A stretch of 32,132 nucleotides of DNA from Candidatus Marinimicrobia bacterium CG08_land_8_20_14_0_20_45_22 (GTDB taxonomy: Bacteria > Fidelibacterota > UBA2242). Both the position numbers and the translations under genes were made by a program. A model generated the notes under the pieces. The model had not been told where the DNA came from and ran no database searches. It was given only the letters and a program-made list of their open reading frames with translations. This document shows positions 1 through 28,634 of the stretch, piece after piece (the stretch's first letter is position 1; each line of letters opens with the position of its first letter). The DNA is taken from NCBI GenBank assembly GCA_002774355.1, contig PEYN01000072.1, positions 1 through 32,132 of the forward strand, in the 5' to 3' direction.

Positions 1-1
1 T

Positions 2-91
2 AACGTCGTTCTTCAAGCCGCTAAGTTATTAGGAGTTTCCGAACGGACTCTTCGCTATAAGATCGAGAAATACCAACTGCTTCCCAAGTGA
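2..91 (+). CDS. C-terminal end of an NtrC-family sigma-54-dependent regulator (partial)
   Basis: The window opens inside a gene. Reading from base 2 gives 29 codons and a TGA stop, including AAKLLGVSERTLRYKIEKY. This is the Fis-type helix-turn-helix that ends NtrC-class response regulators and enhancer-binding proteins: the AAxxLGVSxRTLRYKI pattern is characteristic. In this family the segment binds upstream enhancer dyads, while the missing AAA+ domain contacts sigma-54 RNA polymerase. The next gene downstream on the same strand carries a sigma-54-like promoter and two inverted repeats, so local regulation is plausible. Only the DNA-binding tail is visible, so the sensory input domain is unknown. 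Confidence 0.85.
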   Translation, partial: NVVLQAAKLLGVSERTLRYKIEKYQLLPK

Positions 92-306: not shown

Positions 307-780
307 ATGAAAAAACTCAATTTAATCGCAATGCTCGCGCTGAGCGCTCTTGTTATTCTGGTAACCATACCGACACAGATAAACGCTCAAACGCCAACCG
401 GACATGGAAAAAACTTCGTTGATGTCAACGGCGACGGTCACAACGATAATGCTCCCGACGCAGACGGCGACGGAATCCCGAACGGTCAGGACCCTGATTA
501 TGTTGCCCTGGGCACTGCTTCCGGTCGTGGAACGAGTCGCAAATTTGTCGATGCAGACGGCGACGGTTTCAACGATAACGCACCCGACATTGATGGCGAC
601 GGAATCCCAAATGGTCAAGATTCAGACTACCAGCGTCCGAGCAACGGAACGGGAAAGACTTCAGGAAAAGGACAGCACGGAAATGGCAAATATAGTCCCG
701 CGACTGGCACGACGCCCGGCGCCGGCGCTGGCATGGGCACAAAGAGACAGGCCAGACAAGGTGTAATCAACACTAAATAA
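307..780 (+). CDS. Secreted calcium-loop repeat protein
   Basis: A 157-residue protein with a clear signal peptide (residues 1-28, ending INAQ). Two near-identical blocks follow at about residues 37-65 and 80-108, each with two DxxGDG-type loops (DVNGDGHND, DADGDGIPNGQD; DADGDGFND, DIDGDGIPNGQD). Such loops are typical of EF-hand, dockerin and thrombospondin type-3 calcium sites, so calcium binding outside the cytoplasm is likely. The last 45 residues are rich in Gly, Lys and Arg and look disordered. A strong ribosome site (AAAAAGGAG) precedes the ATG. It is the first gene after the sigma-54-like promoter and is followed by a strong hairpin that may limit transcription into the next gene. I recognise no named family. 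Confidence 0.85.
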   Translation: MKKLNLIAMLALSALVILVTIPTQINAQTPTGHGKNFVDVNGDGHNDNAPDADGDGIPNGQDPDYVALGTASGRGTSRKFVDADGDGFNDNAPDIDGDGIPNGQDSDYQRPSNGTGKTSGKGQHGNGKYSPATGTTPGAGAGMGTKRQARQGVINTK

Positions 781-787
781 AACCCCT

Positions 788-822
788 GTAGGTCGGCGCT
801 CGGGCGCCGACCTACACTTTTT
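788..822 (+). terminator. Strong hairpin with T-run between genes 1 and 2 of the cassette
   Basis: Perfect 12-base arms (GTAGGTCGGCGC at 788-799 and its complement at 804-815) close a 4-base TCGG loop, followed by ACTTTTT. This is the form of an intrinsic terminator. Because the next gene starts only 40 bases on, it probably acts as a partial terminator or an RNA stabiliser. It could also be one copy of a dispersed REP-type palindrome. Confidence 0.6.
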
Positions 823-861
823 CAAAAAATGTTGCATCGATCAACCAAAAAGGAGAGAAAA

Positions 862-1449
862 ATGAAACCAATGACATTGTTTCTTTGGCTTTTTGTTTTT
901 ATATCTACAATACAGGCGCAGGAACGACCCAAACCGCGCGGTTTTATCGATGTAAATCATGATGGAATCAATGATTGGTTTCGGGATGCCAACGGCGATG
1001 GCATCAACGATCTGAACAATCAATCTTATCATCATTCATTCCAATTTCTCGACGAAAATAAAGATGGAATCAACAATCTTTTCACAGATGAAGATGGCGA
1101 TGGCGTCAATGATATCGATGCTCGCTATATCGACACAGACAAGGATGGAAGATGCGAAAACGTCGTCGATTTCAATCACGACTGGATAAATGATATCACG
1201 GGTTTGGTTTATAACCGCCGCGAATTAGGCGGACAACGTTACGGTTTCATTTTGGAAGAGAGCGGAAAACGACTCGAAAATTTCTCAGACAAAGATAAAA
1301 ACGGTCAGGACGATCGCTTGGGCAACGCCGGTGAAATGATACAAGGTCGCATGGATCGCTTCATTGATTCGGATGGCGACGGCGTTTGCGATCAGCGCGG
1401 ATTTAACCGACATCACAAACAGGGCGGACGGCAGAGGGGTAAAGAATGA
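862..1449 (+). CDS. Secreted protein with about eight calcium-binding loops
   Basis: A 195-residue protein. An upstream in-frame ATG at 829 exists, but AAAGGAGAG lies just before the ATG at 862, and starting there gives a clean signal peptide (MKPMTLFLWLFVFISTIQAQ). The mature part carries about eight DxNxDG-type loops: DVNHDGIND, DANGDGIND, DENKDGINN, DEDGDGVND, DTDKDGRCE, DFNHDWIND, DKDKNGQDD and DSDGDGVCD. It resembles the preceding protein in its loops but not in overall layout, and has a basic His/Arg/Gly-rich tail. The stop overlaps the next start (ATGA), implying translational coupling with the outer-membrane barrel. The function is unknown; calcium-dependent folding or binding at the cell surface is an inference. 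Confidence 0.85.
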   Translation: MKPMTLFLWLFVFISTIQAQERPKPRGFIDVNHDGINDWFRDANGDGINDLNNQSYHHSFQFLDENKDGINNLFTDEDGDGVNDIDARYIDTDKDGRCENVVDFNHDWINDITGLVYNRRELGGQRYGFILEESGKRLENFSDKDKNGQDDRLGNAGEMIQGRMDRFIDSDGDGVCDQRGFNRHHKQGGRQRGKE

Positions 1450-2585
1450 ATTTAGCCCGCGCATTTCGTATTTCGTACATCGTTCTGATTTCTGTTTCGT
1501 TTTCCTTTAGCCAGTGGAATCTCTATTTTGATACAATTGCCGGCCATGACGAAAACCTGATTCACACATACAACAAAATCGAAGACCAGATCATCATGCC
1601 TCAAATAGAATTATCTTATACTGGCAACCAATATGATGTTTACTACGACGGATCTTTCACTCAAGTCGTCAAGAATAGTCAATACAATAACGCCATTCAC
1701 TCTGTGGGCATCGACTTTTTAAAGGATATAGATCACTTGCACCAGACTTTCGGTCTTGACTATGCAATCCGAACTAATCAGGAAGAGTACAATTACTTCG
1801 ACTTTTGGGAAGTCGATGGATACTACCAGATATCATTGTCTCCCACGGATTGGAGCGCTCTAAAGGCGGGCGTTAACATGAATTACACCCATTTTCCTCA
1901 AGAAGAGGCGTGGGATCATTATGAAACAGGATTATCTCTCAACCAGAGATTCTTTTTACCTACGCGAAGCACGCTGATGCTTCGCCTGAATTATTTATAC
2001 CGCAATTTCTCACCATACCGAACATACTCAGTCACTCAGAGAATCTCTATAGATGAACTTCCAACGCTTTGGCAAATCGTTGGGTCAGTTCGACTCGCAC
2101 AATCCTTCGGCGAGCACTTCGGCGGCTACACCGAGTATGAATACCGACACAATCCATCAGAAGGAAATCCTTACCAAGCCGATCTGGTCATTTTCAGCCC
2201 GATCGACGATTACTTCGGATATTCGGGTTACCGCTGGAATAGTAATTTGAAGTGGAAAATTACCGGTGGGTTCTGGAGTAAAATCGATTTCACGCAATAC
2301 CAAAATACCTATATAAACCGTCCGATTTATGCATACGACTTCGACGCTAAAATGTGGATTGCAGATACGGACGGAAATTATACTGTCATCGGCAATACGC
2401 GGGAAGACCACGGTCACATAACCGAAATATCCGCGGGATATAAACTGAACAACCTTAACGAAAAAGCTTCCTCTTTAGAACTTTCAGGCGCCGTAACTTT
2501 TTTCAACAACCGGTCGAACGATAAATATTTCGAGTACACAGACGTTTTATATGGCCTGAGGGTAAGTTATAATTTGCAATGGTAG
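1446..2585 (+). CDS. Predicted outer-membrane beta-barrel protein
   Basis: A 379-residue protein with a signal peptide (residues 1-22, ending SFSQ). The rest consists of alternating aromatic and polar stretches typical of beta-strands, such as GGYTEYEYRH and EISAGYKLNN, rich in Tyr, Phe and Trp. It ends in YNLQW, and a terminal aromatic residue is the usual signal for outer-membrane barrel insertion. Its start overlaps the stop of the calcium-loop protein by four bases, so the two are probably made together. I do not recognise a named family. A role as membrane anchor or channel for the calcium-loop proteins is an inference from gene order only. Confidence 0.75.
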   Translation: MNLARAFRISYIVLISVSFSFSQWNLYFDTIAGHDENLIHTYNKIEDQIIMPQIELSYTGNQYDVYYDGSFTQVVKNSQYNNAIHSVGIDFLKDIDHLHQTFGLDYAIRTNQEEYNYFDFWEVDGYYQISLSPTDWSALKAGVNMNYTHFPQEEAWDHYETGLSLNQRFFLPTRSTLMLRLNYLYRNFSPYRTYSVTQRISIDELPTLWQIVGSVRLAQSFGEHFGGYTEYEYRHNPSEGNPYQADLVIFSPIDDYFGYSGYRWNSNLKWKITGGFWSKIDFTQYQNTYINRPIYAYDFDAKMWIADTDGNYTVIGNTREDHGHITEISAGYKLNNLNEKASSLELSGAVTFFNNRSNDKYFEYTDVLYGLRVSYNLQW

Positions 2586-3697: not shown

Positions 3698-6232
3698 ATG
3701 AAAACAACATATAGAATACTCTTCGCTTTTACAATCGCATGGTCGTTTTTAACCGCACAGGATTTAACCGGATATAAATTCTGCATCGATCCCGGACACG
3801 GCGGACACGAATCCGACGACCGCAACATGGCTTACGCGAATTTCTGGGAATCCGAAAGCAATCTCAGCAAAGCCTTCCTTCTGGACTCATTGCTGACGCG
3901 CATGGGGGCGACGGTCGTCCTGACCCGCCATTACAACGGCGATACGGGAAGCGATAACGATCCAGGTCTATCCGAACGCGCAGCGGTTGCCAATCAATGC
4001 GGGGCAGACCATTTTCACTCAATCCACAGCAATGGATACGATGGTAAATCTAATTATACACTGATCCTTTATCCCGGAATCACCGGCGACCCAAGGATAA
4101 ATGGAATTTCCGGTTATCCTTCCTGCCCGATCGAACTGACAATCGCCAACCAAATGGCAACTGAGATCAATGCGGCCAACCGCACAACATCCAAAACGAC
4201 AGCCGGAGACTGGACATTTTACGGAACCGGCAGGCCTTATCTCGGCGTGTTCAGTCCGCTCGTCGTACCTGGATCATTGTCCGAAGGTTCGTTCCACGAT
4301 TATCAGCCGGAAACCTGGCGTCTAAAGAGCAGCGCCTATCATCAGAACGAAGCTTGGGCGATTGCCCGCACTTTTTCATTAGTTTTCGACAGTTCTGATT
4401 TTTCCACACACAATTTGTCTGGTATTGTCCGGGATATGTATGAAAAAGTCAATTATACTTACCTCACATCAAATGACGCCTATAAACCAGTCAATAATAT
4501 CACCATCACGCTGAATCCCAGCGGAAAAGTGTTTCATGGCGACGCGCAGAACAATGGTTACTTTCTATTCGATAGTCTTGAGGCGGGCACTTACGAACTC
4601 ATCGCTACGGCGGAAGGATATTATCCGGACACGGCTTCTGTGACCATCGGTTCGTCCTTTTTCAATTTCAAAGACTTTAAATTGGTCTCCAATGTCCCGC
4701 CCTATATTGTATCATCCACTCCGACGGCAGGATTCGTCGATTTCCCGGCATGGAATCCGATCGTGATAACGTTTAGCCGTCCGATGGATACAACATTGAC
4801 CAAAGCCGCCGTTTCAATCGTCCCGAGTATTCCTCTCAAATTCGCATGGACTGGAACGACTAAACTCAGTATCACGTCCGATAGTCTGGATTTTCTGACC
4901 GCTTATACCATAACGATCAAGAATTCGGCACTGGACATACTCGGGCATTCTTTGGACGGAAACCACGACGGCGTTGGCGGCGACGATTACAGCCTTTCAT
5001 TTACGACCGGTCAGGAAGATATGGCCGCGCCGAAGATCGTTTCTATCTATCCAATCTATAATGCCGCCGGCATCGATCTTTATCCGATCATCAGCATCTA
5101 TTTTGATGAGAAATTGGACACCGCATCATTAACTGATGGCTTTTTTCTCCTGTTGGATTATCCCGCAGGCGATACACTTCCCACAACGGTCAAACATTAT
5201 TATGTCGGAGACCGGAGTGTCGTTCATATGTTCCCCAAAGAGACTTTGAAAGCCAACACAATTTACAAACCTCAGGTCTTATCCGGACTAAAGGATTTAT
5301 TCGGAAATACTATGCTTTCCAAGAAACTGATGCGGTTCACTACTGGCACAAAAGGCTGGGCAGTTACATCTATCGATAATTTTGAAGCCGGTTTTACCGA
5401 TAACTGGTGGACGCCTACCATGAGCGGCAGTACGACCGGCGTTCTCGACGATACGTCAACAGTCCGCGCGCTTACCGATTCGATTTACTTTTTCAGCGGG
5501 GCTGGACACGCTTCCATGAAACTTAAAGCCGGCTGGGATATGAGCGCCAGCGCTTGGTTGTTAAGGGAATATCTGTCCGGCGGCGCGCCCCGTAATGTAA
5601 CATTTACAGCCACCAACATTCTGCAAGCCTATGTCTTTGGAGACAATAGTCGCACACTCTTCCGGTTCGCGGTAGACGATGGCAGTGGTTTTTCCGGCCA
5701 CGAAGTCAGTCCATGGTACACGATCGACTGGATCGGCTGGAAATTAGTCAGCTGGGATATGACGAATGACACAACCGGCACATGGATTGGCAATGGCCCG
5801 CTGGACGGTACTCTGCGTTTTGATAGTTTCCAATTGTCCTATAATCCCGACGATGCATCAGCTACGAAAAGCTGTACCATCTACATCGACGAGTTGAGAC
5901 ATGTCAGCGTTCAAACGGTCAGCGCCATCTCCGAATCAACACCGCAGATGACTGAAACCTTTACCCTACATCAGAATTATCCCAATCCGTTCAATCCGAC
6001 GACCACGATTGCGTTTACGTTACCTCGGGAGTCCAATGTGCGGATCGAGATATTTAACGTGCTTGGAGAAAAGGTGCGCACCCTGACGAACGAACATTAC
6101 AACTCCGGTTACTGGTCGGTCAACTGGGACGGCACCAACGAAACCGGCTTGCAGGTTCCCACCGGCGTCTATTTTTACCGCATGATCACCAATATGGGCG
6201 TTCAGGTCAGGAATATGATGTTGGTAAAATAG
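3698..6232 (+). CDS. T9SS-exported N-acetylmuramoyl-L-alanine amidase with Ig-like domains
   Basis: An 844-residue protein expected to cut the amide bond between MurNAc and the stem peptide of peptidoglycan. After a signal peptide (ending FLTAQ) comes an Amidase_3 domain, about residues 25-230. It has DPGHGG (zinc His34), ESES (zinc Glu at 51 or 53), SIHSN (zinc His110) and LSEGSF (likely catalytic Glu196). Then follow a carboxypeptidase-regulatory-like beta domain (about 240-330), two Big_5-type Ig-like domains (about 335-550) with a DGNHDGVGGDD-like calcium loop, and a jelly-roll-like stretch. The last 88 residues contain QNYPNPFNPTT and end in MMLVK, a type A T9SS sorting domain. Export through the outer membrane implies action on external peptidoglycan or on the cell's own surface. 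Confidence 0.9.
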   Translation: MKTTYRILFAFTIAWSFLTAQDLTGYKFCIDPGHGGHESDDRNMAYANFWESESNLSKAFLLDSLLTRMGATVVLTRHYNGDTGSDNDPGLSERAAVANQCGADHFHSIHSNGYDGKSNYTLILYPGITGDPRINGISGYPSCPIELTIANQMATEINAANRTTSKTTAGDWTFYGTGRPYLGVFSPLVVPGSLSEGSFHDYQPETWRLKSSAYHQNEAWAIARTFSLVFDSSDFSTHNLSGIVRDMYEKVNYTYLTSNDAYKPVNNITITLNPSGKVFHGDAQNNGYFLFDSLEAGTYELIATAEGYYPDTASVTIGSSFFNFKDFKLVSNVPPYIVSSTPTAGFVDFPAWNPIVITFSRPMDTTLTKAAVSIVPSIPLKFAWTGTTKLSITSDSLDFLTAYTITIKNSALDILGHSLDGNHDGVGGDDYSLSFTTGQEDMAAPKIVSIYPIYNAAGIDLYPIISIYFDEKLDTASLTDGFFLLLDYPAGDTLPTTVKHYYVGDRSVVHMFPKETLKANTIYKPQVLSGLKDLFGNTMLSKKLMRFTTGTKGWAVTSIDNFEAGFTDNWWTPTMSGSTTGVLDDTSTVRALTDSIYFFSGAGHASMKLKAGWDMSASAWLLREYLSGGAPRNVTFTATNILQAYVFGDNSRTLFRFAVDDGSGFSGHEVSPWYTIDWIGWKLVSWDMTNDTTGTWIGNGPLDGTLRFDSFQLSYNPDDASATKSCTIYIDELRHVSVQTVSAISESTPQMTETFTLHQNYPNPFNPTTTIAFTLPRESNVRIEIFNVLGEKVRTLTNEHYNSGYWSVNWDGTNETGLQVPTGVYFYRMITNMGVQVRNMMLVK

Positions 6233-7743: not shown

Positions 7744-9240
7744 ATGCTAATTGAGACACAAGCCAGAAAACACGAACAAACGTATTCAGATGAGCATCGG
7801 AAACTATTTGGAGCGCACTACACTCCCGATTCTATATTGGATTATATCGTCCGCCGTTCTCTTCGTCCTTTGTTAGTATCTTCCGATAGTCTTCAGGACA
7901 TCAGGGTATTGGATCTGGCTTGTGGGTCGTGACTTTTCCTACTCAAAGCGTTTGACATCCTAGCTGATTATTGGCGTGATACTTCCGGAAACTTTGGAAG
8001 AGAAGAAGCCAAGTACATCATAGAAAACTCACTCTATGGCATCGATATAGACGAACGAGCGGTAATGGAAACAAGAAAGCATCTTCTTGAAAAAGCATCT
8101 TTGTCTGAATCTGAAGTCCCTCAGATAACGAGCAATATTATTAGTGGCGATGCTCTTGCCTTAAAAAGCCCTCCCCTTCAGCTTGATCTGGAATACCACG
8201 CGAACAATGATACTAAAGTATCCCAATTTGCCAAACATTCGTTTCACTGTATTGTTGGCAATCCACCTTATATCAGAATCCAGAATACTTCTGCGGAAAA
8301 ACGTGATTACTATACCTCAGCCTATCTGACAGCCTCCGGACGATTTGATATTTCAACCTTATTTATTGAATTGGCTGAACACCTTCTTAAAGATCAAGGT
8401 CGATTGGGTTTTATTGTATCAAATAAAATCCTAAGTACGTCGAGTGCAAAGCGATTGAGATCGTTTTTGATAAGCAACTTCGCTATTGAAGAGATTGTTG
8501 ACCTGTCAGACACCAAGCTCTTTGACGCGGCTGTGCTGCCAATGATTCTCATAACGACACACACGCAGAAAAATAACAATAACATTGCTTATTCCTCAAT
8601 CACAGAATCAAATAATCATATTGAAAACGCTATTCATACGGATGACATATTGGGATTGATAACAGAATCTCATATCCCATTTGAGGCAAACATCGAAATT
8701 ACACAACGGATATTCCAAGTCCAGCGTTTCTATACCAATACACCATCAGCTCGGGCAAATGTATGGACATTCCACAACGAGCGAGAGAATAGGCTACTCT
8801 CAATGCTGAGACGCAATTCCGCCTGTACATTAGGTGAGATTTCTGAAAAGATAAGCGTTGGTTTGAAAACTACCGCCGATCAGATATTCATTAAGCCTAT
8901 GACCCAAAATTTCATTAAGCAAAAAGGCTTCGAACCTGATGTTATCTTTCCCTTATTCGAAAGTCATAACATTGGACGTTGGAGATACTCTTGGAATGCG
9001 CGGCGTGATTTATATGTCCTATACCCGCATGCCGAGCAAGGTGGCAAAGTCGTCCCCATTAACCTTGAGGCTTATCCTCGTGTTAAAAAGTACCTCGAGG
9101 CTAATAAAACGCTATTAGAGGCGAGAACATATCTTGCTAAGAGTGACCGCCGGTGGTATGAAATATGGGTGCATCAATCACCGTCTGATTTTCGCCTGTT
9201 TTTTCCAAAGAATAAATTCCGTATCTTTGTTCTTGGGTAA
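7744..9240 (+). pseudogene. N6-adenine DNA methyltransferase (Eco57I/TaqI type), disrupted
   Basis: One frame carries the landmarks of a type IIG-like adenine methyltransferase: motif X (FGAHYTPDSILDY), motif I (LDLACGS-stop-LFLLKAFD), motif IV (GNPPYIRI near codon 173) and the start of a TaqI-type specificity domain (WYEIWVHQSPSDF). The methyl donor would be S-adenosylmethionine. Codon 63 (7930-7932) is TGA exactly where the second Gly of motif I belongs (GGA to TGA), so the gene yields a 62-residue peptide unless translation restarts at ATG 8065, which would lack motif I. The 3' end is also lost: after about 9198 the homology stops and the sequence becomes the reverse strand of an IS30 transposase. 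No partner nuclease is present. It is a dead restriction-modification remnant. Confidence 0.85.
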
Positions 9241-14656: not shown

Positions 14657-15745
14657 TCAGAGGCGTTTTTGAGTGGTTGGATCGAAATAATGAATTTTGT
14701 CCATATCAATCCAAATCTGACAGCAGCCGTCTGAATCCGGCTGAATAATCTGGCCAGCCCGGCTGACGATCACAGTTTTACCGGTTGTAAAATAGGCAAT
14801 GACCTCGTTGCCAAGCGGCTCGGTCAGTTCCAGTTTCAATTTGATGGGAGCGCCCGCCGATGCGGTTTGAGCCAGATGAATATCTTCTGGCCGGATGCCC
14901 ATTACAATTTCCCGGCCGATAAATTCTTCCAATTGTTGAGGATGATCGGTAGGGATCTGAATTTGGCACTGGCCTTCGTCAAGCAGCAGACCGTTTTCCA
15001 TTTTTATGACACCATGTACAAAATTCATGCTGGGATTGCCGATAAAACCGGCTACGAATATATCGGCCGGTTTCCGATAGAGTTCCAGCGGTGAATCAAC
15101 CTGATATACGAGCCCGTCTTTCATGACGGAAATCCGGTCGCCCATCGTCATAGCTTCGACCTGGTCATGAGTGACATAAACCATCGTAATCTTTAGTTGC
15201 TGATGCAGTTTCTTGATTTCCGTCCGCATCTGGAGGCGCAGCTTGGCATCCAGATTCGATAGTGGTTCGTCAAATAAAAAAACTTTGGGATTGCGGACGA
15301 TGGCGCGGCCCAGGGCTACTCGCTGACTCTGACCTCCGGAGAGCTGCTTCGGCTTACGTTTTAAAAGGTTAGTTAATTCGAGAATTTCAGCGGTTTCTTT
15401 TACCCGCTTATCTATTTCACTTTTGGAGATATTGCGCAGTTTGAGACCAAACGCCATATTTTCATAGACCGTCATGTGCGGATAGAGCGCATAATTCTGA
15501 AACACCATGGCAATATCACGATCTTTTGGGGCAACATTATTGACTAATTTGCCATCAATATAAACTTCGCCTTCAGTGGCTTCCTCCAGGCCAGCGATTA
15601 TCCGCAGCGTCGTCGACTTACCGCACCCGGACGGACCGACCAGTACATAAAATTCGCCGTCATTGATGGTCAGGTTCAGGTTTTTAATAACGGTGGTTTC
15701 CTTGCCGAAAACCTTGGTCAGATTCTTTAGTTCAATATTTGCCAT
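14657..15745 (-). CDS. ABC transporter ATP-binding protein, MalK/UgpC type
   Basis: A 362-residue cytoplasmic ATPase that drives CUT1-type sugar importers. All core motifs are present: Walker A GPSGCGKST (37-45), Q-loop Gln83, signature LSGGQ (135-139), Walker B VFLFDE (155-160) and H-loop His193. A C-terminal TOBE/regulatory region (about 235-362) includes GIRPEDIHLA. The length is normal for the family. A ribosome site (AGGA) precedes the ATG. No permease genes lie beside it; the nearest set, at 25472-28630, has no ATPase of its own, so this is its likely motor. The gene is divergent from a UroD-family remnant, and the spacer contains an operator-like repeat also present before the GntR gene. 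Confidence 0.93.
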   Translation of the reverse strand: MANIELKNLTKVFGKETTVIKNLNLTINDGEFYVLVGPSGCGKSTTLRIIAGLEEATEGEVYIDGKLVNNVAPKDRDIAMVFQNYALYPHMTVYENMAFGLKLRNISKSEIDKRVKETAEILELTNLLKRKPKQLSGGQSQRVALGRAIVRNPKVFLFDEPLSNLDAKLRLQMRTEIKKLHQQLKITMVYVTHDQVEAMTMGDRISVMKDGLVYQVDSPLELYRKPADIFVAGFIGNPSMNFVHGVIKMENGLLLDEGQCQIQIPTDHPQQLEEFIGREIVMGIRPEDIHLAQTASAGAPIKLKLELTEPLGNEVIAYFTTGKTVIVSRAGQIIQPDSDGCCQIWIDMDKIHYFDPTTQKRL

Positions 15746-16651: not shown

Positions 16652-16663
16652 CCAGTGGAAATC

Positions 16664-17362
16664 ATGAACAACATCACGCCCATTAACAAACAATCTCTGC
16701 CGGATACGATCGCCCGGGAAATCCGCAATTTCATCATTGATCGCAATTACCACAAAGGCGACCGGCTTCCGGCTACTGCCGAACTGGCCAAGTTATTTGG
16801 AGTTGGATTACCGACCTTACGCGAAGCTATTAAAAAACTGGAAACGATTGGCACCGTCGAGGTCAAACATGGTTCCGGCACGTATGTCGGTAAATATTTC
16901 GACCGCCTTTTCCTGCCGAATCCGATAGCCACATATGAGCCCCTGAAAAAGGCCAGATTGCTGGAATTGATCGATGCTCGCATCGCTATTGAAAGCCGTA
17001 TCATTCATCTGGCAATACCCAATGTGGATGCTGAGCATTTAGCCCGAATCGAGCAATTGATGGCAAGAACCGAAAATTACCCGGATGATTATCTCAAATG
17101 CGCCCTGAATTATCTTGAAATCGAAAATATGATGCGGCAGGCGGCTAATAATACGATCCTGTTCGAAATCGTAATCGCGATAACCAATCTCTATTCCGAG
17201 GATCAATTGGAAATTCTGAATGCACATATGCCTCGCGAAAAAGACTATGAAATCCATCGCAATCTGCTCACAGCTCTCAAGACCGGCGATGAGAAGGAAG
17301 TCATCGAGCTCATGGAAACCCGCTTTAAAATCATCCGTGATATAATTGATCAGTATATGTGA
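16664..17362 (+). CDS. GntR-family transcriptional regulator, FadR/FCD-like
   Basis: A DNA-binding repressor or activator of about 232 residues. The N-terminal winged helix is clear: IAREIRNFIIDRNYHKGDRL, then TAELAKLFGVGLPTLREAIK and VKHGSGTYV. The C-terminal helical domain (about 100-232) fits the FCD ligand-binding fold, but the usual metal-binding D-x3-H pair appears replaced (LEIENMM where DxEFHxx is expected), so the ligand may bind without metal. ATG 16664 is preferred over GTG 16655 because GTGGA sits just upstream. The gene lies between two copies of a shared dyad and the receptor operon, with 34 bases to the receptor start, so it is the likely local regulator. The inducer is unknown, presumably a sugar from the glycan. 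Confidence 0.87.
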   Translation: MNNITPINKQSLPDTIAREIRNFIIDRNYHKGDRLPATAELAKLFGVGLPTLREAIKKLETIGTVEVKHGSGTYVGKYFDRLFLPNPIATYEPLKKARLLELIDARIAIESRIIHLAIPNVDAEHLARIEQLMARTENYPDDYLKCALNYLEIENMMRQAANNTILFEIVIAITNLYSEDQLEILNAHMPREKDYEIHRNLLTALKTGDEKEVIELMETRFKIIRDIIDQYM

Positions 17363-17396
17363 TTTTTGTCTGATATATTTTTTAGGGAGATGTTAA

Positions 17397-20300
17397 ATGG
17401 GCCGGACATTAAATCGAATAATCTTCAGCAGTCAAACAATACTCCTGTTTACGGCATTTTCTTTTGCTGGTGTTACAGGAAAAATCCGGGGAATCGTGAC
17501 TGACAAGAGTACGGGAGCGTCGCTGATCGGAGCGAATGTCATCTTGGATGGTACGGTATTCGGGGCCGCCACTGATCAGAATGGCGAGTATTTTATATTA
17601 TCTGTTCCACCCGGAACATATTCTCTCAATTTTTCCATTATCGGTTACAAGAAAACGACGATGACTGACGTAAAAGTAATCATCGACCATACCACAGCGG
17701 TTAACGTAGAGCTGGAATCTCAGGCAATCAATCTGGGCGAAGAAGTCGTTGTAGTCGCCAAACGGCCGGTCATTCAAAAGGATATAACTAACAGTACCCA
17801 GTTCGTCGAGATGGAAGAATTGATGCAGCTGCCTTTCAGTGATGCCAAAGAAGCCCTGATGGTGCAAACGGGCGTTTTTATGGACCCGCTACCAGTCATA
17901 AGCGGGCCGAATGCGGCCGGACGGGGTGAAAACCGCTACTCGATCCGGGGCGGCGATCAGGGTGAAGTCAAATGGTTTATTGATGGAGTCCGCGTCGCTT
18001 CACTTTTTGAGGGTCGGGCCGACCGGGGCGGTTCTTTCACTAATATTAATATCTACTCCGTTCAGGAAGTCCAGATGATAACCTCCGGTTTTAATGCCGA
18101 ATTTGGCGAGGCTCAATCCGGTATCGTCAACGTCGTGACAAAAGAGGGTAAGGAAAAACTGAATTTTTCACTCGACTATGAGTACGGTCTGTCCGGACAA
18201 CATCATTCCGGTAATTATATTTATTCCCATCCGAGTTCTGGCAAATACCAGAATTGTGTTCGCGATATGTACGATGAATATAATGCCTGGCTGGCCTCTT
18301 TTGACAGCTCCACTCCGACCGCCGCGGATTCGGCGGCTTTCAGCGAATCCATGTCCGCCGCTGACGAAAAATGGTGGTCAAAATATCAAAAGGAATACCG
18401 CGACCACACCAACACTCCCAGTGATATCTGGTGGCTGAATTACGCATACAATTATCATAACGATTCTCTGGCGCTGGGAGAGATCGATCCGAACTGGATG
18501 ACGGCTTATCGTAAGAAATACATCTATGATTATCGCAAGATACCGGATTATAATTTTTATTTCACGGTGGGCGGACCACTTTTCAAACTTGGTGATATCC
18601 GGAGTACCTTTTTTCTGGCCACCCAGCTTAAAAGCGAAGCCTACACCTTGCCGCATCCCCGAGATTCCCATGATATAACCAACCTGACCTATAATTTTGC
18701 CTTTCAGGTCAAATCAAACATGAAATTACGCCTGAGCGGATTTTATAATTTGGACGAGGGCACCACAATGCAGGAATACGGTCAGTTTGTCAATCAGGCT
18801 AAATATTACCGCGGCTGGGGTTCACTGCTCGATACAAAAAATATCGATGTCAATCTGTTCTGGGATCATATAATCTCCAATAAGATGAATTATGATCTGA
18901 AATTAAGCTACTACCTGACCGATATTAAGGAATACCCTGGCGAGTATACCGAATTGGGAAGCAGCTCCAATCCCGATATCTGGGGCTGGCAGCGCTACGA
19001 CACTCTTTCCTACGATACCTATGTCGAGCCGTTCGATGCCTGGTCATTTATCTATGATCAGCATTGGCAAACCAGCGACTTGTCTTTGGTCGGCAGCTGG
19101 AAGTGGCAATGGAATTCCTATAATTTATTAAAAACCGGTTTCGAGTTTCGTTATAATAAAATCGCCGAACTGAAATCATATCGTTTTTCATCTTCTACTG
19201 ACTGGACTGAATACCCTGAACTTTACATGAACCGCAGTTTAAATGAAACCTATTATCCCATTCAATTCGCGACCTACATCCAGAATAAAATGGAATTCGA
19301 AAGCATGATCCTGAATCTCGGGCTGCGCTATGATTATTTCAATGCCAACCGCAACTGGTTTGCCACCAACAATATTTACCAGTTCAGTGTCAATCCTAAC
19401 TATGACGAGAGTCTTGATCCCGACGGGGATCAGGTTGATTCAAATGGTAATATTAAATATTCCTGGGAAAATGTCCTCAATCAACCGCGTGAAAAAACTG
19501 ATTCCTATCATATGATCAGTCCGCGTCTGGGTGTATCGTTCCCAATCACTGAAAATACTTTATTGCATTTCAGCTACGGACATTTTTACCAGATGCCGCC
19601 CTTGGACCGGATGTTCGAACTCGGTTATCTGCGGTCCCAGTATCTGATCGATGCAATCGCCGCCGAAAATGCCGCTGCGGCAGCTGAAGGTCGCACCGCT
19701 AATCATGTTCCTTCGACTTCAGGTGATCCGGAGCGGGTAGTGTTTCTGACCGCTCAACCACTGAAGCCAGAACTGACCAAATCGTTCGAAGTCGGCATCA
19801 AACAAAATTTCGGGGACGTGGCTTCTCTGGAAGTCACGGCCTTTTACAAAGACCAGTTTGATAAAACCGATGCCCGTGCGCAATTATTCGATCGGCGAAT
19901 CTACGGCTATAATCCTTTCACCGGGGAAACATCCGAAACTGTTTTTTACGTCAGTTCATTCCCGGGTGATTATGGAGATGCGCGCGGTGTTGAAATGACT
20001 TTCAGAACGCTGATGTCATCAAATTACACCTTAGATGTCAGTTATAGTTTCTCCAAATCTACCATCGGTCGCGCCAGCCCAGCCTACATTTACATTGATT
20101 CATCCGGAAATTATACTTATACCTGGGACAGCGACGTCAATAAACGTATTCCGGTTCAGAACACTTACAGTCGCCCGCACACTTTACGAACCAACCTGTT
20201 CCTGAAATATCCGAGTGATCTTCATATTCCGTTCCTTACACCGGTATTTAAAGGCACCAGCGCCAGTATTCTGTATCAATATGTCAGCGGCCAGACTTTT

Positions 20301-20627
20301 ACCTACCTGGATGCCGACGATCCACCGGATACTTATGATAACTATCGCTTACCGCCCTATCAAACGGTTAATCTGCGTCTGGAAAAAGCCATTAATATCC
20401 GCAAAGACCAGCAGTTATTTGTCTATGTTCGTATCACCAACCTTTTTAACTGGAAATCTTTAATTTCTCTTGGCTCATCTTACTGGACAGAAAGTGACGA
20501 TATTTTAGCCGATTATATCGAAAATGGTACGGTCACAACCGTTGATGAATATGGTTATGATATTTCCTGGCAGACCTATGCTCCGCCCCGCCGGATTTAC
20601 TTTGGCCTAAAATATTGTTTTCGATGA
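17397..20627 (+). CDS. TonB-dependent receptor with carboxypeptidase-like N-terminal domain
   Basis: A 1076-residue outer-membrane transporter. After a signal peptide (about 1-24) comes a carboxypeptidase-regulatory-like domain (about 28-115: KIRGIVTDKSTGASLIGANV, then DQNGEYFILSVPPGTYSL). The plug follows (about 130-245: RYSIRGGDQGEVKWFIDGVR, then NAEFGEAQSGIVNVVTK), and then a long barrel rich in Tyr/Trp strands ending in YFGLKYCFR. The plug motifs are canonical. It resembles the SusC/OmpA-like receptors of FCB bacteria that take up oligosaccharides or other large ligands with TonB energy, but no SusD gene is adjacent. A good ribosome site (AGGGAG) precedes it. It heads the operon behind the GntR gene. 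Confidence 0.92.
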   Translation: MGRTLNRIIFSSQTILLFTAFSFAGVTGKIRGIVTDKSTGASLIGANVILDGTVFGAATDQNGEYFILSVPPGTYSLNFSIIGYKKTTMTDVKVIIDHTTAVNVELESQAINLGEEVVVVAKRPVIQKDITNSTQFVEMEELMQLPFSDAKEALMVQTGVFMDPLPVISGPNAAGRGENRYSIRGGDQGEVKWFIDGVRVASLFEGRADRGGSFTNINIYSVQEVQMITSGFNAEFGEAQSGIVNVVTKEGKEKLNFSLDYEYGLSGQHHSGNYIYSHPSSGKYQNCVRDMYDEYNAWLASFDSSTPTAADSAAFSESMSAADEKWWSKYQKEYRDHTNTPSDIWWLNYAYNYHNDSLALGEIDPNWMTAYRKKYIYDYRKIPDYNFYFTVGGPLFKLGDIRSTFFLATQLKSEAYTLPHPRDSHDITNLTYNFAFQVKSNMKLRLSGFYNLDEGTTMQEYGQFVNQAKYYRGWGSLLDTKNIDVNLFWDHIISNKMNYDLKLSYYLTDIKEYPGEYTELGSSSNPDIWGWQRYDTLSYDTYVEPFDAWSFIYDQHWQTSDLSLVGSWKWQWNSYNLLKTGFEFRYNKIAELKSYRFSSSTDWTEYPELYMNRSLNETYYPIQFATYIQNKMEFESMILNLGLRYDYFNANRNWFATNNIYQFSVNPNYDESLDPDGDQVDSNGNIKYSWENVLNQPREKTDSYHMISPRLGVSFPITENTLLHFSYGHFYQMPPLDRMFELGYLRSQYLIDAIAAENAAAAAEGRTANHVPSTSGDPERVVFLTAQPLKPELTKSFEVGIKQNFGDVASLEVTAFYKDQFDKTDARAQLFDRRIYGYNPFTGETSETVFYVSSFPGDYGDARGVEMTFRTLMSSNYTLDVSYSFSKSTIGRASPAYIYIDSSGNYTYTWDSDVNKRIPVQNTYSRPHTLRTNLFLKYPSDLHIPFLTPVFKGTSASILYQYVSGQTFTYLDADDPPDTYDNYRLPPYQTVNLRLEKAINIRKDQQLFVYVRITNLFNWKSLISLGSSYWTESDDILADYIENGTVTTVDEYGYDISWQTYAPPRRIYFGLKYCFR

Positions 20628-20654
20628 GAACGGTGTAACGCGAAGGATCAGATT

Positions 20655-22517
20655 ATGATAAGACCAATAATAAAAAGTATCTCCGCATTATCCATCCTAA
20701 TTTTATTAAGTACAACTGGTTGGGCTCAGCGCATACCATCATTTGAAATTCATGATCGCGGCATTCTCTGGGAAACCATGAAAGACGACGGAACTATTGG
20801 CGCTCCCAATCCGACCAGTCGCTATCAGTTCTATCCCAGCATGGACTGGCCGGGCGGCCCCTCCGAACTTTCAACCAAAGATAATCAGCGATCTTACATG
20901 GTCGGCGCCGGCATCTGGGTCGGTTGGAAAAACAGCAGCGGTTCGATCATTTTCTCCGAAAACGGACCAATTTCTTCGGTCTATTACGGGACATTCGAAG
21001 AACTAGTCAAAATCGAAAACTATGTGGAAAATGACAATTACGATCCGAGCCTGCCGGAGCAGACAATTATCGCTCAATGGACCACTCCGGAAAATATTCA
21101 CATCCGCCGCACCAGTAAAGCCTGGAGCTTCCCTGATATAAATAATTTCATCATCATAGATTATGTATTCACCAATCAAACCGGCGCTAAAATTAGCGAC
21201 GCTTACTTCGGTTTCGTTTATCTGATCAGACCCAGTTATCAGGATGTTATGGTCCATAATGGCTGGGGCGATGAGCTCAGCCGTGAGGATGAATCGGTGG
21301 CGTATGATACTAGCCGGGCTCTGTTATATGCCTATGACAATTATATGGCCGACTATACTCAATATATGTGGGATTATGGCAACTGGTGGGACGATGTCGA
21401 GGAAATTCGTTCTCCGGGTTATGCCGGGTATACACTGCTGGGAGCCGACGCTGCCTCCGACAGCAGAGCTCAACCCGCTAACGTATTTTGGACCAGTTTA
21501 ATCGTCAACAAGAGTAATAAATTTACCTTGAGGGGAACTGCAAGTGCTTCCGATCTCTACGCCTTTTTAACCGGCTCAAATAATTCGCTCCAATCCGATC
21601 CGGAAACTCATATTTCTCCTATCATGATTATGAGCTGTGGGCCATATGATCTCGAAGCCGCCGATTCTGTAAAAATCACGCTCGTCGAAGCTGTAGATGG
21701 CTTGCCATTGAAAGATTGTATCAATATCAAATACGATAAAGTAGCAGATACCCAAGCTAATTTACCACAAGGATTGGCACTCCTTCATGAAACCATCGAT
21801 GACGCTCGTGTGCTTTATAATAATAACTGTCGGGTCACGGCCGTTCCACCGCCTTCACCTGAAATTGATATCGTGCCACTACCTTCCAGTCAGGAAATTT
21901 CCGTCAGCTGGGATCCTTATGAAACTGATTATCTGGATCCGCTCACCGGGCGGAATGATTTAAAGGAATATATCATTTATCGCAGTGAATACTCTTATAA
22001 CGGACCCTGGACGACTAAAGTAAAAAGTATCAAGCCCGGGAATTCCATCTCAATAACTCGTTATTTTAATGCAGAAACCGGTCGTTGGCAATATAATGAC
22101 AATACCATCAATCTGGGCGTCGGTTATTATTATGCCGTGACCGCTAAGGATAGCTCCGGTAATGAAAGCTGGCTGACCAACCGCAATTCCGAAGCCGTTC
22201 TGGCCGCCAGTTTTCCGGATTCAACCACGAAAAATGTCAAGGTTTTCCCTAATCCATTCCGCGAAAAATCCGGATTCCCGGCTACGGATGATGCCAATTC
22301 GATCGTCTGGACCAATTTGCCGGCCATATGCACGATCCGCATTTACACGTCCGCCGGAGAATTGGTCAAGACCCTTAAACACAATAATGCCGCTTCCGGT
22401 GAAGAGGTTTGGGACCAGCTGACTGACTCCCGCCAGCGGACGGCGCCGGGCATTTATTTCTGGACGGTGGAATCAAGCGTCGGGAATGCCAAAGGTTCGT
22501 TAATCCTGATCAAATAA
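20655..22517 (+). CDS. Secreted protein of unknown function with T9SS C-terminal domain
   Basis: A 620-residue protein with a signal peptide (ending TGWAQ). The central part (about 30-400) is beta-rich, with many Trp and Tyr residues and no family I can name. A fibronectin-III-like stretch follows (about 405-515, with ISVSWDPYETDYLDP and YYYAVTAKDSSGN). The last 98 residues begin VKVFPNPFREKSG and end in GSLILIK, a T9SS sorting domain. It is therefore probably exported through the outer membrane and anchored or released there. It sits 27 bases after the receptor and directly before the PorV-like gene. In gene order it occupies the place a SusD lipoprotein would take, so a ligand-binding role at the receptor is a fair guess, though it shows no SusD features. 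Confidence 0.8.
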   Translation: MIRPIIKSISALSILILLSTTGWAQRIPSFEIHDRGILWETMKDDGTIGAPNPTSRYQFYPSMDWPGGPSELSTKDNQRSYMVGAGIWVGWKNSSGSIIFSENGPISSVYYGTFEELVKIENYVENDNYDPSLPEQTIIAQWTTPENIHIRRTSKAWSFPDINNFIIIDYVFTNQTGAKISDAYFGFVYLIRPSYQDVMVHNGWGDELSREDESVAYDTSRALLYAYDNYMADYTQYMWDYGNWWDDVEEIRSPGYAGYTLLGADAASDSRAQPANVFWTSLIVNKSNKFTLRGTASASDLYAFLTGSNNSLQSDPETHISPIMIMSCGPYDLEAADSVKITLVEAVDGLPLKDCINIKYDKVADTQANLPQGLALLHETIDDARVLYNNNCRVTAVPPPSPEIDIVPLPSSQEISVSWDPYETDYLDPLTGRNDLKEYIIYRSEYSYNGPWTTKVKSIKPGNSISITRYFNAETGRWQYNDNTINLGVGYYYAVTAKDSSGNESWLTNRNSEAVLAASFPDSTTKNVKVFPNPFREKSGFPATDDANSIVWTNLPAICTIRIYTSAGELVKTLKHNNAASGEEVWDQLTDSRQRTAPGIYFWTVESSVGNAKGSLILIK

Positions 22518-22528
22518 AGGTGATGCGC

Positions 22529-23473
22529 ATGCAAAGAATATTCCTAATTATATCAATCACGGCGATCCTGACAATTGAAACACAGGCTCAATTTGATTAC
22601 GGATTCGATTTTTCCAAAGCCGGCAGCGCCGGACTACAATTTCTGAAGATCGGTGTAGGTGCCCGGGAAGCTTCTATGGGTGAAGCCTTTACCAGTCTGT
22701 CCGAAGGTGTCAATTCGGTTTTTTGGAATATCGCCGGTATTGGTTTCCTTACCCGGACAGCCGTAACTTTTTCACATAGTAACTGGCTGGTGGAAAGCAG
22801 TCACGATGCTTGCGCGATTGCAATTCCGATTCGCTCAATCGTAGTCGGAGTCAGTGCGATCAGTTTTCGGATTCAGGACTTCGAAGAAACAACTGTATCC
22901 GCTCCTAACGGAACCGGAAATATGATCCGCGCCGGCGATTATATGCTGGCTCTGGCCGTCGCCCGGCGCTTTACCGATAAACTGACGATCGGTCTGCAAA
23001 TAAAATATGCCGAGGAGATTCTGGATAACTACAATTATGGCAACGTCTTATTCGACATCGGCACAATTTACCGGACCGGATTCCGCGATCTGAAACTGGC
23101 TTTCGCTCTGCAGCATTTCGGCCCGGACAAGGTTTTAGCCGAACAACAATTCCGTATGCCTTTGCTATTTAGAGTCGGCGCTAGTGATAATATTTTTAAC
23201 ACCCGGACCCAACGCCTGACAGTTTCCGGAGAATTATTGCATCCGACCGACGCCAACGAGTATTTCTGTATCGGTCTGGAATATGAGTTTTTAAAAATGC
23301 TGGCCCTGCGCGGCGGTTATCGGACCAACGATTTCGAACATTATCTGACCACCGGATTCGGGTTGAAATTGCCCAATATTGGTTATTTTGGAACTAACTT
23401 CGACTATGCCTATGTTTCCTACGGCGATGTATTTGAAACAACGCATCGTTTTACACTCGGGATGTCTTTTTAG
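22529..23473 (+). CDS. PorV/PorQ-like (UPF0164) outer-membrane protein
   Basis: A 314-residue protein with a signal peptide (ending TQAQ). LQFLKIGVGAREASMGEAFT, then SVFWNIAGIGF, is the hallmark start of the PorV/UPF0164 group, a 14-strand FadL-like barrel. The end, HRFTLGMSF, is a typical barrel terminus. PorV is the T9SS shuttle that receives cargo from the translocon, and many FCB genomes carry several paralogues. Here the gene lies between two T9SS cargo genes, which suggests service to them. Possible starts are GTG 22520, ATG 22523 and ATG 22529; AAAGG at 22516-22520 is best spaced for 22529. Confidence 0.85.
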   Translation: MQRIFLIISITAILTIETQAQFDYGFDFSKAGSAGLQFLKIGVGAREASMGEAFTSLSEGVNSVFWNIAGIGFLTRTAVTFSHSNWLVESSHDACAIAIPIRSIVVGVSAISFRIQDFEETTVSAPNGTGNMIRAGDYMLALAVARRFTDKLTIGLQIKYAEEILDNYNYGNVLFDIGTIYRTGFRDLKLAFALQHFGPDKVLAEQQFRMPLLFRVGASDNIFNTRTQRLTVSGELLHPTDANEYFCIGLEYEFLKMLALRGGYRTNDFEHYLTTGFGLKLPNIGYFGTNFDYAYVSYGDVFETTHRFTLGMSF

Positions 23474-23480
23474 AGTAATA

Positions 23481-25475
23481 ATGAGATTTAGAACTACCGG
23501 ACAGAATATTTCCAATTTGATTCAGAGTGTGGGCCTGACTGGCGGCATGTTGCTCCTTACTCTCATACTGGCTCGGTGTAAATTCACTTCCGTTCAGCAG
23601 CCTGCCGGAGCTAAAACCGGCGATACAATTGCCGTTTATCTGACTGTCAAAGAAGATTACGCCGAAACCACCAACGCCCATAAAGGCTTGATCGGGGTAC
23701 TGGTTCCCGAAGACTGGACCTTTATTTCCGGCACCTATTCCAGCTCGGTCGGAAGTGGAAATTTGGAGTATTCCTCCAACTGGACCGATTCAGCCGAAAT
23801 ATATTATCCGGTCGGCGAATACGGGGATAATCTGAAGTGGATTGTGGTTCTTTCCGATTCCGGCTATATGTATTCCGATTTGCCCTCCGCGGATGTTACT
23901 TTGTTACTCAATACCGGAACGCTGGAAGGTTGTTTCAAAATGGCCTATATCGCCACCAAAGCTACCACCGGGCTTTTGGGAACCGGCTGGACGGCCTTTT
24001 CATATCCGCATGCAATTGGGATTCCCGATTCGACCGCCTGCGAAGGTTCCGATACGACCACCCTGAAAACGGAACGGGCTCCAGACTGGGATGATTTATT
24101 CAATCGCACCTCTGGCTGGACCGGAGCGGATGGCATTTATTCCATCCCGCTATCGGGTTGTGACATATTTAGAGATGACAGTCTGCAGAAAACTTTATTT
24201 CTGTTCAGCGATACCTTCATCGGTAGCGTTAACTCGGAAGGGAAACGGGTTAATTCCAAGCTTGTAAATAATACTTTGGCATTGCTAACCGGCTATGAAC
24301 CATCCGATGAAAAGACCGAGTTTACCTGGGGAGAGACCGCCAGTGGCACTCCAACGGCTGTATTTATCCCGGATACTCCTGAGTCTGCCTCCGGGGATTG
24401 GTATTGGTTAATGGATGGCATTGCGATTGGCGACACCGTTTACATTTACGGTATGCGCCTCAGCCCGAGTTCCACCAGTTCGCTGGGCTGGGAAATATCC
24501 GGAGTAGCCCTGATTTCATTTGCCGTTGACGACGATTTCAATATCTTCGACGTCAAACAGGTCGATACGCCTTTTCTCTATAACGCCTCAGACGGAACGC
24601 AGACAATCATTGGCCAGGCGATTATGCCAATGACGGAAGAATCTGGCAATCCGAACGCGGACGGCTTTCTGTATGTTTATGGGCCGCGCAGTGGGAGCGT
24701 AAGCCGGGAAATGGTCGTCTCCAGAGTTTTACCGCAAAATATCACCGATTTTTCGCAGTATCGCTACTGGAATGGCAACGACTGGGTAGCCGACATTGCC
24801 GAATGTGAAGCCTTAACCAATTCCATCTCAATGGAATTCAGCGTAACGCCTCTCGCAGACGGACGCTATATCTGTGTCTTCCAGCTGAACACCGTCAGTC
24901 GCAGTGTGGCGGTCAGATTCGGTGATAGCCCAACCGGACCGTTTGGCTATTATCAGCTTATCTGGGATTGTACGGAGAGCGACTCGAACCCCAATATCAT
25001 CATGTATAATGCCAAAGCCCATCCGCATCTGTCGAATCACGGCGAACTGCTGATCAGTTATAATGTCAATTCCTTCAATTACGATTCGTTTACCTATGTG
25101 GACATTTACCGTCCGCGGTTCATTACCCTGACCTACGACGACCAAAGCGGAGTAATTTATTGCCACTCAAAAGTTGTCCCGGAACAGTACACTTTATTAC
25201 AGAATTACCCCAATCCCTTTAACGCCACCACCCGGCTTACCTATCAACTTAGTCAGACATCTGACATTACTTTAAATATTTATGATTTGACCGGTCGACT
25301 GGTCCGCACTCTGGTTCAAAATCGCGCCGCCGCCGGAACGTACCAGGTTTTCTGGAACGGTGTTGATAGCATTGGCCGGCCGCTTCCGAGCGGGATTTAT
25401 TTTGCCCGAATCCAAATCCAGACGACCAACCGGCAGATGTTAACCGAAACCTGTAAGCTAATGCTGTTAAAATGA
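23481..25475 (+). CDS. DUF5005-like propeller protein with T9SS C-terminal domain
   Basis: A 664-residue secreted protein. Earlier in-frame ATGs back to 23379 lie inside the PorV-like gene, and ATG 23481 follows its stop by seven bases. The N-terminus has a hydrophobic segment (GGMLLLTLILARC), possibly a signal or lipoprotein peptide, though Arg before Cys is atypical for a lipobox. A cohesin-like or Ig-like stretch follows (about 45-190). Then DWDDLFNRTSGWTGADGIYS, TLFLFSDTFIG and DWYWLMDGIAIGDTVYIYG match the DUF5005/DUF4185 type of five-bladed propeller related in fold to glycosidases. The final 92 residues begin LLQNYPNPFNATT and end in LMLLK, a T9SS domain. A carbohydrate-acting surface protein is likely; the activity is unproven. 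Confidence 0.8.
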   Translation: MRFRTTGQNISNLIQSVGLTGGMLLLTLILARCKFTSVQQPAGAKTGDTIAVYLTVKEDYAETTNAHKGLIGVLVPEDWTFISGTYSSSVGSGNLEYSSNWTDSAEIYYPVGEYGDNLKWIVVLSDSGYMYSDLPSADVTLLLNTGTLEGCFKMAYIATKATTGLLGTGWTAFSYPHAIGIPDSTACEGSDTTTLKTERAPDWDDLFNRTSGWTGADGIYSIPLSGCDIFRDDSLQKTLFLFSDTFIGSVNSEGKRVNSKLVNNTLALLTGYEPSDEKTEFTWGETASGTPTAVFIPDTPESASGDWYWLMDGIAIGDTVYIYGMRLSPSSTSSLGWEISGVALISFAVDDDFNIFDVKQVDTPFLYNASDGTQTIIGQAIMPMTEESGNPNADGFLYVYGPRSGSVSREMVVSRVLPQNITDFSQYRYWNGNDWVADIAECEALTNSISMEFSVTPLADGRYICVFQLNTVSRSVAVRFGDSPTGPFGYYQLIWDCTESDSNPNIIMYNAKAHPHLSNHGELLISYNVNSFNYDSFTYVDIYRPRFITLTYDDQSGVIYCHSKVVPEQYTLLQNYPNPFNATTRLTYQLSQTSDITLNIYDLTGRLVRTLVQNRAAAGTYQVFWNGVDSIGRPLPSGIYFARIQIQTTNRQMLTETCKLMLLK

Positions 25476-26878: not shown

Positions 26879-27785
26879 GAAGATGCAGAAAACGACGAAA
26901 AATCCTCTCTACAAAAAGCAAGCCTGGCTCGGCTACCTTTTCGTGGCGCCCTGGATAATAGGATTCCTGGTTTTCGGCCTGTACCCGATTGTGATGTCTT
27001 TTTATTACAGCCTTTGCCAGTATGATGTCCTGCGGATTCCCCAGTTTATCGGCATGGGAAATTATCGGGAGTTATTGTTTGAAGACCCATATTTCTGGAA
27101 ATCGGCCTGGAATACAGCGTTTTATACTTTTATCCGGACGCCATTGGTGGTTATTGGGTCGTTGCTGCTGGCTGTTCTTGTTAATAATGCCATGAAGGGG
27201 ATCAAGATTTTCCGGACGATCTTTTTCATTCCATCAATTATTACCGGTGTGGTGTTGTCCGCCCTATGGCTCTGGCTGCTGAATCCCCAATACGGGCTGA
27301 TCAATTCCATTCTCGCCTTTTTCGGTTTGCCTGGACCGCTCTGGCTGCAAAGTCCGCACTGGTCCAAACCGTCAATTATTCTGATGAGCTTGTGGTCAAT
27401 TGGCGGCGGACGCATGCTGGTATTTCTGGCAGCTCTTCAGGGCATTCCCAAAGCGCTCTACGAAGTGGTGGATATCGACGGTGGCGGCTGGTGGAAAAAA
27501 TTTCGGTATATAACGGTTCCAATGGTATCGCCGGTGATCTTTCTCTGGACGGTCCTGGAAGTAATCTTTTCCTTTCAGGTATTTACAGAGGCCTATGTTA
27601 TGACCAAAGGCGGACCGATGAATTCCACCCTGTTCTATAATCTGTATCTCTATTATAAAGCCTTTGATGATTTCAGCATGGGCTACGCTTCGGCGCTGGC
27701 CTGGTTGCTGATGGTGATCATCCTGGTGGTTACGCTGATTCAGTTTATCGTTGGTAAAAAAGTCGTCTATTACGAGGGGGCCTGA
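26871..27785 (+). CDS. ABC sugar permease, MalF/UgpA type
   Basis: A 304-residue inner-membrane protein with about six hydrophobic helices, starting WLGYLFVAPWIIGFLVFGLY. This is the classic beginning of MalF/UgpA-type permeases. The EAA loop that docks the ATPase is at about 198-217 (EVVDIDGGGWWKKFRYITVP). FTEAYVMTKGGPMNSTL is another family mark. It overlaps the binding-protein gene and is followed after five bases by the second permease, giving the usual order of binding protein, permease, permease. The missing ATPase is probably the one at 14657-15745. Confidence 0.93.
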   Translation: MNKKMQKTTKNPLYKKQAWLGYLFVAPWIIGFLVFGLYPIVMSFYYSLCQYDVLRIPQFIGMGNYRELLFEDPYFWKSAWNTAFYTFIRTPLVVIGSLLLAVLVNNAMKGIKIFRTIFFIPSIITGVVLSALWLWLLNPQYGLINSILAFFGLPGPLWLQSPHWSKPSIILMSLWSIGGGRMLVFLAALQGIPKALYEVVDIDGGGWWKKFRYITVPMVSPVIFLWTVLEVIFSFQVFTEAYVMTKGGPMNSTLFYNLYLYYKAFDDFSMGYASALAWLLMVIILVVTLIQFIVGKKVVYYEGA

Positions 27786-27790
27786 GCAGT

Positions 27791-28630: not shown

Positions 28631-28634
28631 CAGA

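Follow-up and report, generated by a model that had tools for sequence, protein, structure and literature searches.

A loop-protein and outer-membrane barrel cassette as the predicted output of a two-component, sigma-54-dependent switch in Neomarinimicrobiota and two further phyla

In the window analysed here, the whole of contig PEYN01000072.1 (C72; 32,132 nucleotides) from Candidatus Marinimicrobia bacterium CG08_land_8_20_14_0_20_45_22, two secreted loop-repeat proteins and an outer-membrane β-barrel are encoded in one tight cassette which, judging from the sequence, is the regulated output of an adjoining histidine kinase and NtrC-type regulator and not a free-standing unit. The preliminary description had presented the three genes as a cassette of their own. 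Their linkage stands, whereas the free-standing arrangement does not, since the system also comprises the kinase and regulator, a sigma-54 promoter with its enhancer and, in many relatives, a Spy/ZraP-like chaperone. All genes, in the window and its relatives alike, were called as plain ORFs in metagenome assemblies.

The first gene, loopA (positions 307–780, + strand), encodes a secreted protein of 157 residues, made of two copies of the module FVDxxGDGxNDNAPDxDGDGIPNGQDxDY and a Gly-rich tail. The second, loopB (862–1449, + strand), is likewise secreted and lies in an ORF open from position 829, giving 206 or 195 residues with a start at 829 or 862, respectively; the ATG at 862, which stands behind AAAGGAGAG, is the likelier of the two. 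Both N-termini, read directly, are Sec-type signal sequences. Scored with the strict pattern D-x-[DN]-x-[DN]-G-x-x-[DN], loopA holds four loops and loopB six, and two degenerate ones (DTDKDGRCE and DFNHDWIND) bring loopB to eight, in agreement with the four and “about eight” loops first described. In 5000 composition-preserving shuffles, the mean number of loops was 0.02 for loopA and 0.04 for loopB, with maxima of 1 and 2. A scan of all window ORFs found no DxDGDGxxD-type loops outside these two proteins, and a search of the whole genome of origin with loopA returned loopA and loopB alone. The Pfam TSP3 model scores loopA at 15.3 bits, below its cut-off of 25, and does not match loopB; the AlphaFold2 model of loopB, at a pLDDT of 39, could not be used. 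From the motif we assume that the loop proteins bind calcium.

Neither loop protein carries a type 9 sorting domain (Por_Secre_tail or CHU_C), which is found in two other proteins of the window (3698–6232 and 23379–25475). Because they have Sec-type signal peptides without a surface-sorting domain, the periplasm would be their default location, and the calcium-stabilised surface structure proposed earlier finds no support. Helices with a weak resemblance to LTXXQ are joined to the loop module in two genomes, and ~45-residue, weakly LTXXQ-like repeats (LTEEQRQELQTLIESMQ..DATRDDIHDAVAATLEGWGIEVPE) are fused to or accompany the module at L030:408-980 and L094:7595-8134. The genome G017 encodes an additional secreted protein of 148 residues between loopA and loopB (L023:6094-6537, − strand).

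The third gene (1446–2585, + strand) encodes 379 residues ending in a C-terminal aromatic residue, and its start does overlap the loopB stop by ATGA (1446–1449), as had been noted. AlphaFold2, applied to this protein and 15 relatives, predicts with high confidence a barrel that has 16 membrane strands and lacks a plug (mean pLDDT 88.4, pTM 0.81), in agreement with the outer-membrane β-barrel first described. Neither Pfam nor NCBIfam yielded a match, a profile search against PDB sequences retrieved chance antibody matches alone, and Foldseek, run on the barrel model, returned as nearest solved structures only generic porins and exporters (AlgE, OprD and OmpG) at TM-scores of ~0.3–0.6 and 7–13% identity. 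With no sequence match in Pfam, NCBIfam or the PDB and generic Foldseek matches only, we reject that the barrel is a known transporter; it is an unnamed family as far as these three collections go, in line with the original proposal of a barrel with its own partners instead of a known transporter acting alone. The Pfam search also found no OmpA peptidoglycan-binding domain in any of the three cassette proteins, the weak TSP3 similarity being its only result.

Between loopA and loopB lies a perfect stem-loop of 13 bp followed by CTTTTT (787–816, + strand). Its sequence is present in a single copy in the genome, and a dispersed repeat was rejected on this ground; of 33 related loci, 30 have a stable stem-loop of differing sequence at the corresponding position (p ≤ 0.01 against shuffles; mean z −4.7). 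Since the hairpin follows the first gene and yet the operon continues, its simplest reading is that of a leaky terminator or mRNA stabiliser, which would give an excess of loopA. The operon is closed by a probable intrinsic terminator (2644–2659, + strand) with a 5-bp stem and a CCTTTTT tail.

The window opens inside the gene of an NtrC-like response regulator, cut by the contig end, of which the C-terminal Fis-type helix-turn-helix remains (2–91, + strand, reading NVVLQAAKLLGVSERTLRYKIEKYQLLPK up to the stop codon). Another contig of this genome, C154, ends in the very 42 bases with which the window begins, so that the regulator reading frame runs on across the join (G000:C154:1-3343, L099, with window positions 1–42), which lies inside the response-regulator gene and makes C154 the left-hand neighbour. 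C154 encodes a homologue of a relative’s kinase (51% identity over nearly the whole length) and then an NtrC-type regulator whose gene is cut by the contig end. From this exact overlap, the order of the locus is therefore kinase, regulator, loopA, loopB, barrel. The kinase is a membrane protein with the domains HisKA and HATPase_c, with a weak sCache_3 match in the sensor region of one relative, and the regulators of the relatives combine Pfam Response_reg (receiver), Sigma54_activat and HTH_8 (Fis). AtoSC, ZraSR and NtrC are the top models for the pair; however, the kinases of two relatives reach 220.7 and 190.1 bits where the ZraS equivalog cut-off is 479, and the regulators of two relatives reach 449.7 and 378.1 bits where that of ZraR is 760, with AtoC scoring higher.

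Sigma-54 promoters are the targets of NtrC-type regulators, which act from palindromes further upstream, and both elements are found between regulator and cassette. The palindrome TTCGACAATTTTGTCGAA (111–128), of the form TTCGACA-N4-TGTCGAA, is followed 127 bp further on by a sigma-54 (−24/−12) promoter element TGGCACGCGAATTG (239–252, + strand), 53 bp 5′ of loopA, which corresponds to TGGCAC-N5-TTG and reads TTGA, not TTGC, at −12. In nearly all related loci the same element is similarly placed. Most relatives also have the same palindrome, mostly 92–136 bp 5′ of the sigma-54 box (81 bp in G016), and often a second one ~20 bp, or two helical turns, downstream. In the window, a degenerate second palindrome CCCACAAAATTGTTGGG (132–148), ~20 bp from the first centre to centre, may likewise have a regulatory role. 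With an exact-pattern search, the core TCGACA-N4-TGTCGA was found at one site in the 2.6 Mb of the window’s own genome, at 112–127; across the phylum the exact core is present in 38 genomes and lies at the cassette in 23 of them by hand count. The regulator recognition helix SERVLRYKL accompanies the palindrome, whereas f2g13 regulators have SVTTLNYKV and the palindrome is absent from the single f2g13 promoter examined (G022), so that this covariation of helix and palindrome rests on a small sample. Altogether, the palindrome is a probable enhancer bound by the regulator, and a control circuit of this kind is strongly supported by the pattern of sites and genes.

Palindrome and promoter stand before other genes in some genomes, and the predicted regulon is therefore not always single-target. 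An orphan Spy-like gene in G025, located in a separate place, lies under its own palindrome and sigma-54 promoter. In G049, G240 and G243, palindrome and sigma-54 box are found 5′ of a gene for a 326-residue protein resembling an outer-membrane barrel (L172:7507-8681, L173:1137-2293 and L178:3844-4832), which diverges from a TetR-like gene and a cluster of membrane and oxidase-like genes; this outer-membrane protein is a possible second regulon member. In G016 and G019 the pair precedes an ABC transporter operon (L175:3780-8001 and L171:2914-4990), the box being 432 bp off in G019, and in G016 a related histidine kinase follows that operon, perhaps as part of a paralogous switch. Two loci of the phylum of G289 (L248 and L249) each have two palindrome-promoter pairs, of which the first precedes the loop gene and the other stands immediately in front of the barrel.

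The barrel profile matches 40 of 245 Neomarinimicrobiota genomes and the loopA profile 35, of which 34 also have the barrel. With one genome showing loopA only, six the barrel only and 204 neither, Fisher’s test gives p = 2.5e-34, a value that wrongly takes the genomes as independent and thus overstates the surprise. In the lone genome with loopA only, the contig stops ~80 bases behind that gene. The order kinase-regulator-loopA-(loopB)-barrel-(Spy-like) is repeated across families of the phylum: families f1, f2 and f3 have loopB, and in the other families, which are without it, the barrel is usually followed by a Spy/LTXXQ/Metal_resist protein. Among 36 Neomarinimicrobiota loci, 22 have such a protein next to the barrel; the window’s own operon has no Spy-like gene.

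Genomes outside Neomarinimicrobiota are matched by the barrel profile, too. In the phylum of G388, loopB occurs in 14 of 64 genomes, and the same 4-nt overlap of loopB and barrel is kept in nine of ten scorable loci, with kinase and regulator adjacent; G388 itself has the order loopA-loopB-barrel-kinase-regulator together with palindrome and promoter, and in L203 and L204 the first operon gene is Spy/LTXXQ-like. As the loci of this second phylum were found via loopB, the independent tests there are the barrel, the control DNA and the regulators only. In the phylum of G289, 48 of 82 genomes have the barrel, and locus L237 repeats exactly the window’s gene order. Taking the three phyla together, we compared 67 barrel loci having at least 700 bp of upstream sequence with 123 control windows from the same loci. 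Loop proteins immediately precede the barrel in 65 of the 67 loci and are found in none of the control windows, and a palindrome stands 70–180 bp before a sigma-54 box in 46 loci, again against none of the 123. A kinase or regulator is encoded within 9 kb in 55 of 67, a count based on broad models that speaks for adjacency, not orthology. That the three genes are unrelated neighbours is rejected by the co-occurrence across genomes and by the 65 of 67 loci with loop-barrel linkage; the families belong together, as had been supposed. A single-protein scan of GTDB contigs returned no relatives, and a plasmid search with a loop protein found nothing; a wide alignment of the barrel was too divergent for a pattern scan, and a narrow one led to eight Neomarinimicrobiota loci.

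Some loci are followed by genes for multihaem cytochromes (642 residues in L031, 439 in L179), and periplasmic ferredoxin-like proteins are encoded after the barrel in G017 (L023:2246-4211, − strand), with the same ferredoxin genes in G019 (L037). In the window itself, the region 16655–32060 is an apparent carbohydrate-use locus with a GntR regulator, a TonB-dependent receptor, an extracellular solute-binding protein and a GH38-type glycosidase, and it also encodes a DUF4185 protein with a type 9 sorting domain. A MalK-type ABC ATPase is encoded at 14657–15745, and an Eco57I-type restriction-modification methylase domain at 7744–9240, apparently split over the ORFs 7744–7932 and 8065–9240.

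With modest confidence, we favour the view that the operon is the output of a dedicated two-component, sigma-54-dependent switch for envelope stress (or metal stress), following a logic like that of ZraPSR and Cpx. The kinase would sense when the periplasm or the outer membrane is disturbed, and the phosphorylated regulator would bind the palindromes and activate sigma-54 RNA polymerase at essentially one target, with the stem-loop behind loopA setting the level of loopA far above those of loopB and the barrel. The loop proteins would fold on divalent cations, most likely calcium, in the periplasm and might act on the barrel from that side, buffering cations, gating the channel or serving as an outer-membrane scaffold; where a Spy/ZraP-like chaperone is present, it would handle misfolded envelope proteins. 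Within this scheme, we infer both the stress signal and the contact between loop proteins and barrel. A more specific version, which we regard as possible rather than probable, is an undescribed multi-phylum envelope-stress system in which a sigma-54 two-component switch deploys an abundant calcium-loop protein that uses its own barrel as a docking site or as an exporter, divalent-cation binding directly reinforcing or gating the outer membrane.

Against a stress switch, the weak sCache_3 match would fit a nutrient sensor, too. Together with AtoC as top regulator model, AtoS or ZraS as kinase model and the predicted porin-like fold, it is compatible with a substrate-sensing kinase of the DctB/AtoS sort that switches on a porin, the loop proteins serving as periplasmic binders of ions or substrate. 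Across the relatives, however, no transporter is conserved next to the cassette, and the recurrent partner is a Spy/ZraP-like chaperone; mainly because of this partner we prefer envelope or metal stress, and we hold an uptake function to be distinctly unlikely. The barrel might instead export the loop proteins to form a calcium-bound surface layer or adhesin, with the sensor only timing production. The conservation, in more than one phylum, of the translational overlap between loopB and barrel, the predicted lack of a plug and a stem-loop that could make loopA abundant would all suit this, and barrel-linked TSP3 repeats do act at the surface elsewhere, in TraAB of myxobacteria (PMC12045341). 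Display at the surface nevertheless appears unlikely to us, given that the loop proteins are without the sorting domain that other window proteins have and that a 16-strand barrel lacking POTRA or other secretion domains is no known protein exporter; the fusions of LTXXQ-like helices with the loop module, seen in two genomes, also point, weakly, to the periplasm.

A part for the barrel in an apparatus of extracellular electron transfer or metal handling is suggested by the cytochromes downstream in several loci (L031, L179) and by the ferredoxin genes by the barrel in G017 and G019, but it is very improbable: no multihaem cytochrome adjoins the window cassette, and no MtrB-type porin is among the listed barrel matches. 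A conserved electron-transfer operon was rejected, as the cytochrome neighbours vary and most families lack them.

What is known of envelope-stress responses comes mainly from Proteobacteria. The system described here is a regulated outer-membrane module, unnamed in the libraries searched and present in Neomarinimicrobiota and two further phyla, whose full control region can be read from the sequence, and the predicted regulator site is precise enough to read off the regulon. Under the favoured envelope- or metal-stress reading, it might serve as a direct test case for a joint action of calcium-loop proteins and a barrel during stress.

The open-access literature searched holds no description of the system; within that literature, its control logic is known in kind, while the output of calcium-loop proteins plus barrel is undescribed. 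With AlgE, OprD and OmpG the barrel shares a single-chain barrel fold, yet it differs from them in sequence (7–13% identity, TM-score at most ~0.6, no sequence family match). OmpA/OprF-type proteins and TraB likewise combine an outer-membrane barrel with TSP3-like calcium loops, and TraB joins barrel, TSP3 repeats and a peptidoglycan-binding domain in one chain (PMC12045341), whereas the cassette has separate proteins, a larger barrel and no OmpA domain. The locus of ZraPSR, the NtrC-type system of E. coli that responds to envelope stress and zinc, resembles that of the cassette: in both, one target operon adjoins the genes of a histidine kinase and of a sigma-54 activator of the NtrC type. 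ZraR acts as a conditional factor with a single target, zraP/zraSR, to which it binds, and the target operon encodes a periplasmic chaperone (PMC8249747). A Spy/CpxP-like protein is among the targets in many relatives of the cassette, but the window’s operon has no Spy-like gene. The ZraPSR output, however, includes neither calcium-loop proteins nor an outer-membrane barrel; because the kinases and regulators of the relatives stay far below the ZraS and ZraR cut-offs and the output is different, we do not file the cassette as ZraPSR. ZraPSR and Cpx both act on envelope integrity (PMC10848872), and Cpx/CpxP and the Zra2 system of Vibrio cholerae resemble the present one as two-component envelope responses with a periplasmic accessory protein (PMC10848872), from which the cassette is set apart by its sigma-54 dependence, as predicted from the promoter sequence, and by its barrel and loop proteins.
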